From positions 1 to 23,751 of the IMG/VR virus record IMGVR_UViG_3300021425_000194: 23,751 nt of DNA; one strand, given 5' to 3'. This document shows, one piece after another, positions 9,564-12,757 of the stretch. The translations under genes were made by a program, and so were the position numbers. Numbering within the stretch: position 1 is the stretch's first letter; each line of letters opens with the position of its first letter. This DNA is from a virus. Below the pieces are notes generated by a model, which was given only the letters and a program-made list of their open reading frames with translations, was not told where the DNA came from and did no database searches.

Positions 9564-9787
9564 AATTTACCACCAACTATTCCATCAAATGTTTTGGAAG
9601 TGCGGCAATTTGCCCAGTTAGTAGCGACACCTTCCATGTGGAATCTCGTTCCCGCCACGACAACTTCTTTCGTAAGTCCTGTGATGAGAGCCTTGCCATC
9701 CTCACCAAAGCTATTCCACGTTCCAAATCTTGTCTTTGCAACTCTGAATTTTCCATAGGGTGTTTCATACCATTCATAATCACTCAT
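9560..9787 (-). CDS. Small unknown protein between gp55 and gp47
   Basis: A 75-residue protein starting MSDYEWYETPYGKFRVAKTR, rich in aromatic and charged residues with no membrane segment. Both ends overlap neighbours by ATGA (gp55 stop and gp47 start), the strongest evidence that it is translated. The sequence alternates short strands and contains TWNSFGEDGKALI and a C-terminal NWANCRTSKTF segment; I recognise no family. A parallel frame at 9577-9783 has poorer composition and no coupling and is taken as a shadow. By context it is expressed with the late sigma factor and the recombination nuclease, but nothing ties it to either function. Confidence 0.8.
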   Translation of the reverse strand: MSDYEWYETPYGKFRVAKTRFGTWNSFGEDGKALITGLTKEVVVAGTRFHMEGVATNWANCRTSKTFDGIVGGKL

Positions 9788-10293
9788 CGGTTCATTCTAG
9801 TTTCAATATTTTCTTTGATGCTACCCATGTCAGAATAGGAAGCGTTCATACCTGACATACTACCATCATATGTGTCAGTATGCATAACTTCGTCATATCC
9901 TGAACGCTCTAGGATCTTTCCTTTGATCTCTAGTTGCTTTTTCTCTTTCTGAATGCGGCGTAGGAAAGCGTAGTAAATGATTTGAGTGAAGTAGGCAAAC
10001 GGGTTCTTTGATTTCTCAGGATCAAAGTTGTCAATATACTGGAGGCAGTTTTCAATGCCGTCGCAGATCATGTCCTCACGGAACATGTAATTGACAAAGT
10101 TTGGTTTGTAAGACAGGTGGGTGGCAATCTTCAAGAAGCATTCTCCAAGGTAGTTTGTGACACGAGGTCGCGGTTTGCCTAGTTCTTTTGCACGTTGAAC
10201 TTTACTGCGATATTCAGTAATGGCAGCAAGGAAGTCCTTGTTATTAACGTAATATTCTGTTTGCTTTCTTTTTGCCATTACTGTGTATGCCAC
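9784..10293 (-). CDS. 55: gp55 late-transcription sigma factor
   Basis: This 169-residue protein aligns by eye with T4 gp55 (185 residues), the minimal sigma factor that recognises TATAAATA late promoters. Shared features are YYVNNKDFLAAI near the N terminus, the EDMICDGIENCL segment, NFDPEKSKNPFAYFTQ and the basic FLRRIQKEKKQLEIKGK, matching sigma region 2-like parts of gp55. Two starts are possible: GTG at 10293, preceded by AAAGG at six bases, and ATG at 10278, which has no ribosome binding site at normal spacing. I chose the GTG on that evidence, though the ATG gives a more T4-like N terminus. A near-consensus sigma70 promoter lies 27 bases upstream, so it should be expressed by host polymerase early in infection. 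The stop overlaps the next ATG (ATGA). Confidence 0.93.
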   Translation of the reverse strand: MAYTVMAKRKQTEYYVNNKDFLAAITEYRSKVQRAKELGKPRPRVTNYLGECFLKIATHLSYKPNFVNYMFREDMICDGIENCLQYIDNFDPEKSKNPFAYFTQIIYYAFLRRIQKEKKQLEIKGKILERSGYDEVMHTDTYDGSMSGMNASYSDMGSIKENIETRMNR

Positions 10294-10319: not shown

Positions 10320-10348
10320 AGTATAACAGTTTATACTTCTCTTGTCAA
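10320..10348 (-). promoter_or_regulatory. Near-consensus sigma70 promoter for gp55
   Basis: Minus strand TTGACA (plus 10343-10348), exactly 17 bases, then TATACT (plus 10320-10325). Initiation would fall near 10313, about 20 bases before the gp55 GTG. It would drive gp55, the 75-residue gene, gp47, the DUF3110-like gene and gp46 down to the terminator at 6503-6527. Confidence 0.85.
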
Positions 10349-10351
10349 AGC

Positions 10352-10380
10352 TTGACAGATCCTCAGAAACTTAGTAGAAT
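10352..10380 (+). promoter_or_regulatory. Candidate antisense sigma70 promoter, back to back with the gp55 promoter
   Basis: Plus strand TTGACA (10352-10357), exactly 17 bases, then TAGAAT (10375-10380). Its -35 is three bases from the -35 of the opposite gp55 promoter, making a TGTCAA-AGC-TTGACA dyad. Transcription would run rightward, antisense to the 132-residue gene at 10414-10812 and possibly uvsW. No plus-strand gene follows. This is sequence match only. Confidence 0.45.
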
Positions 10381-10413
10381 AACTCTGTCAAGGGTTCAAG
10401 AGAGGTATAGCTA

Positions 10414-10812
10414 TTAGCTTTTATTAAAGATATCTTCTAGAGTTTTTTTCATCTCTTTTACTGAACCTAAGTATCCAGAACCTCTTGGTAATTTATTCCC
10501 TCTACCAGCTAGCGACTTTCCGCTCTCTAGTTTGTGGAGGGTTTTTTCATAGAACTCTACAATCTCACCCTCAATCTCAATCATGGTCATTATGTGATCT
10601 CGTTTGATAACAAACATTGTATCGAATGTAGCAGAGATCCATTCTTTTAATGAAAACCCAGATACTTCCATTTGACCTTTTCGTTGTCTAGCATTCTCTA
10701 CCATGAGAGGACGTTCTAGCATAACTTTATCTTCTTCAGAAAGATAACAAACTTTGGATATTAATTCTTCACCTGATAATAATTTTACTGTTGCATAAAA
10801 TTCTTCTTCCAT
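10414..10812 (-). CDS. Unknown 132-residue protein downstream of uvsW
   Basis: Starts two bases after the uvsW stop with MEEEFYATVKLLSGEELISK, then VCYLSEEDKVMLERPLMVEN. The N-terminal 85 residues alternate strand and turn in a way that recalls small beta-barrels such as Sm/LSm proteins (the VKLLSGEELISKV segment is similar in style to an Sm1 motif), but this is a visual impression only. The C-terminal 40 residues are a basic Gly-rich stretch (LAGRGNKLPRGSGYLGSVKE) and a short amphipathic helix. No membrane segment or catalytic motif. It is the last gene of the gp3-uvsY-uvsW run and its stop lies about 65 bases before the gp55 promoter. A plus-strand promoter candidate points into its antisense strand. 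Confidence 0.8.
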   Translation of the reverse strand: MEEEFYATVKLLSGEELISKVCYLSEEDKVMLERPLMVENARQRKGQMEVSGFSLKEWISATFDTMFVIKRDHIMTMIEIEGEIVEFYEKTLHKLESGKSLAGRGNKLPRGSGYLGSVKEMKKTLEDIFNKS

Positions 10813-10814
10813 AT

Positions 10815-12287
10815 TTAATTTGCTCTAAGGTTTACTTTTATAACCTCATACTTAAAGTTCTCTTCATTGTAAATTGTAACTCTTTCATTTAAATGACGAA
10901 GGGTGTAATTCTGTCCGCCGATGTCATCAGCGATATCGTATAAGGTTGCGATGTCTTTTCCTTCGCCTTTCCTGAGGACACGTCCGATGGACTGAAGATT
11001 GCGGATGCGCGACTTACTAGGGGAAGCAAAAATAATGTTGTGTAATCGTTTAATGTTAATACCAGTAGAGAAAGTTCCGTAAGATGCGATGATAACAGCG
11101 TTGTTCTCAGTCTCAGTAATCTGTCGGACTTCTTCTCGGTCTTCTACATCAGTCCCACCATGAACAAAAAACAATTTCCGTTCGGGGTCTATGGTGTTAT
11201 TTATCAAGTCATAAAGTGGTTCCCCATGCTTCTCGATATAGTTAAACAACACAAGAGTATTTCCTTCTATATCTTTGACTAGATTTTTAATAAGGTTATT
11301 TCTACCTTTATGCTCTACTAGATAATCCATTTCATCATGATATGATTCAAAGTATTGCGGCGCGTGCTTACATAGCAACACTTTGATTCTAAACTTGCTA
11401 AGATATCCTTCTCTGATTAGATCATCTGTTTTAGTCACACGCTCACAGTTGCCAAACAATCCTTCTAGGACCCACTTGTGTGTCTTGCTACCGTCAAGTG
11501 TGCCTGTAAAACCAAAGCGATACTTTGCGTTATGCAACTTTGTCATGATTCCTGTGAGGGACTTTGACTTAAATAGGTGTGCCTCATCACCGATAACACA
11601 GTCAATGTCATCAAAGTATCTTTTGGGGAACTTGTAGATGGATTGCCAAGTGGAAATAATGATTGGTTTGTCAGTATTCTTATCTTTGCCCGAATAAATC
11701 TTATGCACATGATCGTCAGCATTCCATCCGTAGTCATTAAAGTCATTGACCATCTGTTCTACCAGGGACGTAGTAGGGACGATGATGAGCGTCTTCTTGT
11801 TGGTAGCAGTATAGTATCTGACGAGGGAATAGATCATCAGAGATTTACCACTCCCCGTAGGAGAAAGAAGTAGTTTGCGGTTGTTTTTTACTGCTTCATA
11901 GACCGCACGGTACTGATAGTCGCGTGGAGTAATTCCCGTTCTGGTGATCTTATCCATAAAGGTTTTGATGCCAGCAGGAGAAACAAAATCATTTGTCTCT
12001 TCAACTTCTCCATACCAATCATTCTTTTCATACTCAATAGTATATTGTCTTTCGTCTGCCCAAACTTTTAGGTGCTCCATCAATCCACCATAAAGTTCGC
12101 CTGTACCTGGGGAGTACAGACGAATCGTTCCATCCCAATACTTATACCTCGGATTCTTCTTTAAGAATTTTGCTTCGGGAACCTCAAAAGAAAAATAGTC
12201 TGAAAGTTCATGATGAACATGAGGCTCAGCAGACTGAATAGTCACATAGACTTCATTCTTCTTTTTTACAGATAGGCAGGTCATCAT
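10815..12287 (-). CDS. uvsW: UvsW helicase
   Basis: A superfamily 2 RNA/DNA and branch-migration helicase that in T4 resolves R-loops, ending origin-type replication and promoting recombination-dependent replication. With the start at 12287 it is 490 residues (T4 UvsW 587). Motif I PTGSGKS is at 143-149, motif II DEAH at 234-237, motif III-like FTGTLDG follows at 260-266, and SIGRVLRKGEG gives motif VI near the C terminus. The N terminus (HHELSDYFSFE) matches the small T4 UvsW N-terminal DNA-binding domain. The ORF could extend to a GTG at 12311, but the ATG at 12287 overlaps the uvsY stop as ATGA and fits the T4 N terminus. The T4 C-terminal region appears shortened here. Confidence 0.95.
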   Translation of the reverse strand: MMTCLSVKKKNEVYVTIQSAEPHVHHELSDYFSFEVPEAKFLKKNPRYKYWDGTIRLYSPGTGELYGGLMEHLKVWADERQYTIEYEKNDWYGEVEETNDFVSPAGIKTFMDKITRTGITPRDYQYRAVYEAVKNNRKLLLSPTGSGKSLMIYSLVRYYTATNKKTLIIVPTTSLVEQMVNDFNDYGWNADDHVHKIYSGKDKNTDKPIIISTWQSIYKFPKRYFDDIDCVIGDEAHLFKSKSLTGIMTKLHNAKYRFGFTGTLDGSKTHKWVLEGLFGNCERVTKTDDLIREGYLSKFRIKVLLCKHAPQYFESYHDEMDYLVEHKGRNNLIKNLVKDIEGNTLVLFNYIEKHGEPLYDLINNTIDPERKLFFVHGGTDVEDREEVRQITETENNAVIIASYGTFSTGINIKRLHNIIFASPSKSRIRNLQSIGRVLRKGEGKDIATLYDIADDIGGQNYTLRHLNERVTIYNEENFKYEVIKVNLRAN

Positions 12288-12757
12288 TGTCCATTTACGA
12301 ATTTCTCCCACTCAATGGCACTCTTGATCTGAAAACCTCTATTAGAAATTTGCTTCATGACTTGATCTAACCAGTAAAGCATCTGGTCTAGATATTTGAT
12401 CTTTGCCTCAAGGTTGATGATCTCGTCATCTGCCTCAAGATAAGTTTTCATTTTTTCTGAAGTCTTGATGCTTGATCCAAATGGTTTAGAGGCGTAAGTT
12501 TTTGCGTCTGCTTCGCCTGAGTAATACTCACGTTTCTCTTTTACCATCTTACGGATCTGAAATTCCAGCGAGGTTTTGATCTGCTGAATGTCAGTGTAAT
12601 GGTTTAAGTATTTATTATGTTGGAAAGGGATGTCTAACGCGAGTTGTCCCAGATCTGTGGTATATTGTTTGTTCTTAAATTGAAAATCAACGGCACTATC
12701 TTCTGCCCATTGTTCTCTTAAATTGTCAAATTTATCACGAAGGTTGTCAAAATTCAT
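12284..12757 (-). CDS. uvsY: UvsY recombination mediator
   Basis: At 157 residues (T4, 137) this matches UvsY, which loads UvsX recombinase onto gp32-coated single strands. Similar segments are the basic KREYYSGEADAKTYA block, the SEKMKTYLEADDEI block and the ISNRGFQIKSAI block near the C terminus, in the same order as in T4. The protein is highly charged and helical, as expected. It begins with an ATGA overlap on the gp3-like gene and ends with an ATGA overlap on uvsW, so the mediator and the helicase are translationally coupled. The partner recombinase uvsX is not in this window. Confidence 0.88.
   Translation of the reverse strand: MNFDNLRDKFDNLREQWAEDSAVDFQFKNKQYTTDLGQLALDIPFQHNKYLNHYTDIQQIKTSLEFQIRKMVKEKREYYSGEADAKTYASKPFGSSIKTSEKMKTYLEADDEIINLEAKIKYLDQMLYWLDQVMKQISNRGFQIKSAIEWEKFVNGQ

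Follow-up and report, generated by a model that had tools for sequence, protein, structure and literature searches.

In a marine T4-like Synechococcus phage, the promoter of gp55, the gene for the late sigma factor, is packed against a conserved sigma70-type promoter that faces the opposite way with no gene in front, and a palindrome on the predicted start site of this second promoter is best read as the operator of a small regulon, through which a putative regulator would choose between the two promoters at gp55. The window, i.e., the whole stretch of DNA analysed (23,751 nucleotides), comes from a phage with relatives at about 90% identity (S-RSM4, S-WAM2 and S-H9-1), and the gene order on its minus strand is uvsY, uvsW, a gene for a 132-residue protein, gp55, a gene for a 75-residue protein, gp47 and gp46. 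The gp55 gene (positions 9784 to 10278, minus strand; phrog_234, E 1.1e-69) starts with the ATG at 10278, and an in-frame GTG is located upstream at 10293. Its promoter (10320 to 10348, minus strand) is formed by TTGACA (10348-10343), a 17-bp spacer and TATACT (10325-10320), the latter preceded by TG, with a start at about 10313; it carries no start-site palindrome. The gene-less promoter (10352 to 10380, plus strand) is formed by TTGACA (10352-10357), a 17-bp spacer and TAGAAT (10375-10380), and its predicted start is at about 10387. Each promoter matches 11 of the 12 consensus bases, and the initial annotation, which had described divergent sigma70 promoters with -35 boxes 3 bp apart, was correct in every hexamer. 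It was also correct in describing the plus promoter as having no gene ahead of it and lying antisense to the 132-residue gene and then to uvsW: no plus-strand ORF of at least 50 residues exists between 9838 and 11383.

Both promoters have the sequence features of sigma70 (SigA) promoters, i.e., TTGACA, a spacer of 16-18 bp and a TATAAT-like -10 box. A T4 middle (MotA) promoter was rejected for this locus, since a canonical TTGACA is present and not a MotA box at -30. When the window was searched for the strict pattern TTGACA-N17-TANNNT, two sites were found in the 23.7 kb and both are this pair; 0.44 sites are expected by chance, and at least two sites appeared in 8 of 100 shuffles. From the window alone the pair is therefore only mildly improbable, and its conservation in relatives, which is far stronger evidence, decides.

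For this comparison, gp55 loci were gathered without using the promoter as bait and were combined with those of nine named phages, which gave 271 distinct upstream regions. The antisense promoter was present with at least 10 of the 12 consensus bases in 262 of these regions, versus 80 of 1355 shuffles (6%), and its TTGACA was exact in 241. The gp55 promoter reached the same threshold in 236 regions. The initial annotation had proposed that relatives be examined for conservation of both spacers, and had named as refuting the case in which they keep only the gp55 promoter; that case does not apply. The spacers are mostly of 17 bp (255 of 271 for the antisense promoter, 211 of 271 for gp55), and the antisense promoter is kept at least as well as gp55's own, so that, by the measure of conservation, the plus promoter is a real element. 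Its predicted starts in relatives are at 63868 (plus strand) in S-RSM4, 84439 (minus strand) in S-PM2 and 123698 (minus strand) in Syn9. The gp55 loci of Pelagibacter phage HTVC008M (TTGACA-17-TATAAT), Stenotrophomonas phage DLP6 (TTTACA-17-TATAAT) and Sinorhizobium phage phiM12 (TTGACA-16-TATAAT) also carry it. No such promoter was found within 350 nt upstream of gp55 in T4, KVP40 or Vibrio phage D508, and in KVP40 and D508 a different annotated gene lies ahead of gp55.

The geometry of the pair was analysed in the 229 loci in which both promoters were scored. In the window the -35 boxes abut, 3 bp apart, as TGTCAA-AGC-TTGACA (10343 to 10357), and the initial annotation had suggested that this dyad might be an operator that chooses the direction of transcription. 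As a conserved operator the dyad was rejected, because the gap between the -35 boxes varies among groups of relatives: it is 2-7 bp where they abut, as in the window, -7 where a single -35 is shared (TTGWCAA, or TTGACAA read both ways) and -16 where the promoters are interleaved. The operator idea itself survives, with the palindrome at 10381-10396 as the candidate. In 94% of the 229 loci fewer than 80 bp separate the two predicted start sites, and the gp55 -35 box overlaps the antisense promoter or sits inside it in 141 of them; in HTVC008M the gap is wider and the two promoters do not overlap. By this geometry, the conserved object is a packing too tight for two polymerases, and therefore binding at the two promoters should be mutually exclusive. 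Given the footprint size of RNA polymerase, the host enzyme would be expected to hold one promoter of the pair at a time. The start-to-start distances in these loci cluster at 54-55, 63-65 and 72-78 bp; the clusters, near 54, 64 and 75 bp, are separated by steps of roughly one helical turn.

The start-site palindrome, AACTCT-GTCA-AGGGTT (10381 to 10396, plus strand), lies directly 3′ of the antisense -10 box and is centred on the expected +1 (10387). The initial annotation had pointed to a third TTGACA on the minus strand (10386-10391); this hexamer exists, but it is not a -35 box, given that no -10 box is found at 16-18 bp from it (the hexamers there are TTTCTG, TTCTGA and TCTGAG), and it corresponds to the centre and right half of the palindrome. 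In many relatives the letters of the third TTGACA differ and the palindrome is kept. Among phages the arms change together, with the pairs AACCT/AGGTT, AACTG/CAGTT, AACAG/CTGTT, ACCCT/AGGGT, TGTAG/CTACA and GTTAT/ATAAC. When the right halves were exchanged among sequences, in permutations that ignore phylogeny, the mean Watson-Crick stem was 2.86 versus 2.10 (z 8.3, 0 of 500 shuffles), and with one row per left arm z was 7.2. The three non-cyanobacterial phages HTVC008M, DLP6 and phiM12 have perfect 5-bp arms of their own (AGGCA/TGCCT, TCAGG/CCTGA and CAGGA/TCCTG, respectively). A chance origin of the palindrome is unlikely, because distant phages have independent arm sets. The P-SSM3 group on its own gave no covariation signal, and the palindrome of ACG-2014d is degenerate.

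The same box recurs at one or two other promoters per genome. Complete genomes were searched for TTGACA-N17-TANNNT followed by TGT, with the arms left free, and in most of the named phages the gp55 locus and one or two further places matched. Within a genome the left arm was often the same: AACCA three times in S-RIM2, AACAC three times in S-RIM14, and two copies each of AACAA in ACG-2014d, AACTC in S-PM2 and in S-RSM4, AACAC in Syn9, and AGCAA, AGGTT or AAGCT in metagenomic genomes. An exact left-arm match within the genome was observed in 9 of 22 genomes, where 1.08 were expected (P about 5e-5); in G007 the boxes differ within the genome. Despite the identical box, most copies have spacers that bear no relation to one another (1-9 matches of 17 in seven of nine genomes), with 11 of 17 in S-PM2 and 15 of 17 in G001. 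Copies in phiM12 and G001 also share their spacers, and duplication explains part of the box sharing, in only some cases such as phiM12. HTVC008M and DLP6 carry the box at the gp55 locus only, so a trans-acting factor is not needed there. Elsewhere, a trans-acting factor encoded by the phage would be expected to leave such a phage-specific word at unlinked promoters.

The other copies drive genes in the sense direction: genes of the phrog_718 kind in S-RIM2, S-RIM14, S-IOM18, ACG-2014d and Syn9, cpeT in S-RIM2, phrog_507 in S-PM2 and phrog_558 in S-RSM4. When IMG/VR was searched for exact copies of the 16-nt version AGCAATGTGGCGCTTT following a TTGACA-17 promoter, 38 stretches matched, of which one group lies at gp55 loci and about two dozen lie ahead of a conserved ORF of 62 residues. 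A host regulon was rejected, since the AAC..GGTT promoter pattern is almost absent from prokaryote genomes (15 matches in 257 Gb, two of which, filed under Prochlorococcus and Rhodopirellula, are gp55 loci and hence phage DNA). No regulator was recognised among the small proteins encoded downstream of the second copies: they showed no DNA-binding family or fold, and for the 62-residue protein (model pLDDT 74) the PDB gave no informative structural match, none being better than E 0.04.

Several further observations were made at promoters of this or a similar pattern. At the 62-residue phage ORF (MNLQNPSE..ALDKI..DLYNKKV..; non-gp55 loci L601-L636, and L540) the leader box is strictly conserved, and the ORF has no PHROG match and a weak match to Pfam DUF7294. 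Ahead of four non-gp55 promoters of the same class (L083, L114, L124 and L147) there is a conserved stretch, ACCCAAATATCGT...GTCG.GTGACAAAGACCAC-TTGACA, which is possibly a structured RNA or a repeat. In two metagenomic phages (L542 and L544) a helicase-like ORF (411-417 residues) lies behind the second copy of the box. In Bacillus-group genomes (L587, L588, L590 and L595) a TTGACA-17-TAAACT-AACGATGTAAAGGTT promoter precedes a conserved 110-residue ORF with a helix-turn-helix-like stretch; this pattern is similar but probably unrelated.

We propose, as a reading that stands a little short of an even chance, that a strong host-type promoter makes a short non-coding antisense RNA and excludes the gp55 promoter, and that the palindrome is the operator for a phage regulator that also acts at one or two other promoters. 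Initially, polymerase would go to the antisense promoter, whose RNA would run against the end of the Sm-like gene (the 132-residue gene), and gp55 would be kept low. After the early genes have been expressed, a phage factor at the palindrome, or a changed polymerase, would shut the operator-bearing promoters, the polymerase would pass to the gp55 promoter, and late transcription could begin. As in repressor-operator systems, the palindrome is placed where it could block polymerase, and the site is repeated at several promoters of one genome. The sequences themselves show that the promoters are conserved and closely packed, that the palindrome covaries and that the box is shared within genomes; we infer the transcription, the mutual exclusion in vivo, the action as repressor rather than activator and the effect on gp55 timing. 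The arrangement resembles the Pr/Pc conjugation switch of pLS20 (PMC4207663), and phage repressor operators generally, in having divergent overlapping promoters and a candidate direction-selecting operator. It differs from these systems in that the phage is lytic and T4-like and one side is non-coding; its palindrome, placed over the start site, changes from one phage to the next.

In another reading, which is possible though we consider it rather unlikely, the RNA is itself the product and works as a cis-antisense RNA, repressing or destabilising the Sm-like mRNA and the uvsW read-through into gp55, and the box only times this RNA with other early genes. CfrI, the cis-antisense RNA proven in S-PM2 (Millard 2010; described in PMC2984593 and PMC5931967), is the one experimentally known antisense RNA in T4-like cyanophages (PMC2984593), and the RNA predicted here is likewise non-coding and antisense to genes of a T4-like cyanophage. 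The locus of CfrI is a different one, however, at psbA and a homing endonuclease gene, whereas the present promoter faces the 132-residue gene and uvsW, stands close against the gp55 promoter and was found at nearly all loci tested. The antisense direction and the lack of an ORF fit this explanation: in the relatives the promoter also faces a coding gene with no ORF of its own, phiM12 being the exception, no conserved plus-strand ORF begins 10-120 nt past the predicted start, and a hidden plus-strand protein was rejected on this ground. The window also provides a plausible end for the RNA, which would be about 160 nt long (10387 to 10549, plus strand), as a weak intrinsic terminator lies 156 nt downstream of the start (stem at 10522-10542, about -10.5 kcal/mol, followed by TTTTTTC). 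The terminator is not generally conserved, however: one was found within 450 nt in 83 of 226 clusters (mean 0.44 versus 0.27 in shuffles), and as a conserved feature it was retained only in part. Nor was there a conserved RNA fold (z -0.50 versus -0.47 in a control region; -2.34 for the window's own RNA), and an Rfam search of the locus gave nothing above chance. Moreover, a cis-antisense RNA leaves the tight packing with the gp55 promoter unexplained. In the phiM12 locus, a 50-residue ORF follows the plus promoter, between gp55 and the gene in the Sm-like position, and the antisense unit may sometimes be coding.

It is improbable that the locus is an R-loop replication origin of the T4 oriF type, in which a non-coding RNA annealed in an A+T-rich stretch would prime replication, here beside uvsW (10815 to 12311, minus strand; phrog_16, E 3e-126), the next gene on the antisense path. 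The T4 origins oriF (at uvsY) and oriG are about 100 bp long and consist of a promoter and an A+T-rich unwinding element, and UvsW removes R-loops (PMC3016281); as in those origins, the promoter here lies near recombination genes and its RNA need not code. The first 24 nt of the predicted RNA are rich in G (31%, with 9% C), and the stretch from +13 to +72 is 70% A+T versus 66% further downstream. This enrichment is small, however, there is no MotA box, and the same element is found at ordinary coding leaders. GC-skew extremes were not at the locus in S-PM2, S-RSM4, Syn9 or S-RIM2, so that strand composition, which is a supporting and not a defining feature of such origins, lends no support to this reading.

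We also give little credence to a cis action of the palindrome, in which the non-template strand or the nascent RNA would fold into a hairpin at initiation and no protein-binding operator would be involved. In the main group, allowing plus-strand G-T pairs explains the covariation better (z 7.2) than allowing A-C pairs (z 3.8), and genomes with a single copy exist, as a hairpin would allow. On the other hand, a start at +7 after the -10 box leaves the left arm outside the RNA, the CREM2 group has no G-T preference, and a hairpin does not predict that the exact letters are common to unlinked copies in one genome. That two ordinary promoters lie together by chance and the plus one is spurious is very improbable. 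Promoter-like sites are indeed frequent in the window (23 per 11 kb, a frequency matched by shuffles), but the near-universal conservation of sequence, spacing and position already refutes pure chance, and the box behind a TTGACA-17 promoter was found only 2-3 times per genome in whole-genome scans of S-PM2, S-RIM2, S-RSM4 and Syn9.

Part of the regulon may already have been seen. A 'novel regulatory element' of early genes was reportedly described in the T4-like cyanophage Syn9 by Doron in 2016; Syn9 carries the present promoter-box element twice, and the two could be the same element, in which case the regulon part is partly known. For the antisense promoter of the gp55 locus, no description was found in the literature searched, which leaves most subscription journals outside.

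In cyanophages motA and asiA are missing, and according to a review it is unclear how their early and middle transcription is controlled (PMC2984593). The non-coding promoter that nearly all these loci keep beside the late sigma gene, with its candidate phage-specific operator that recurs at one or two other genes, offers a testable handle on this control and may be a hidden element that times the late phase of infection, and the phages that carry it form a natural series for the co-evolution of operator and regulator. Current annotation around gp55 in these phages overlooks this conserved, putative second unit of transcription. More broadly, and with doubt prevailing, T4-like phages outside the T4/KVP40 group might share an ancient undescribed module, in which a non-coding promoter is locked against the late-sigma promoter and a phage-specific operator/regulator pair evolves fast. 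If so, operator specificity would differ from lineage to lineage, much as immunity types do in temperate phages, and would set the time of late transcription in lytic marine phages.

The gene overlain by the predicted antisense RNA (10414 to 10812, minus strand) matches phrog_471 (E 7.7e-40), which PHROGs labels 'methylamine utilization'. A PDB sequence search with its 132-residue product gave no useful match. Against Pfam Sm_like the product scored 28.6 bits (E 1.6e-6), just below the cut-off of 29.4, and the S-CREM2 counterpart is annotated as an Sm-like RNA-binding protein. Across cyanophages, phrog_471 is, by these matches, better described as a candidate for an Sm-like fold than by its present label.
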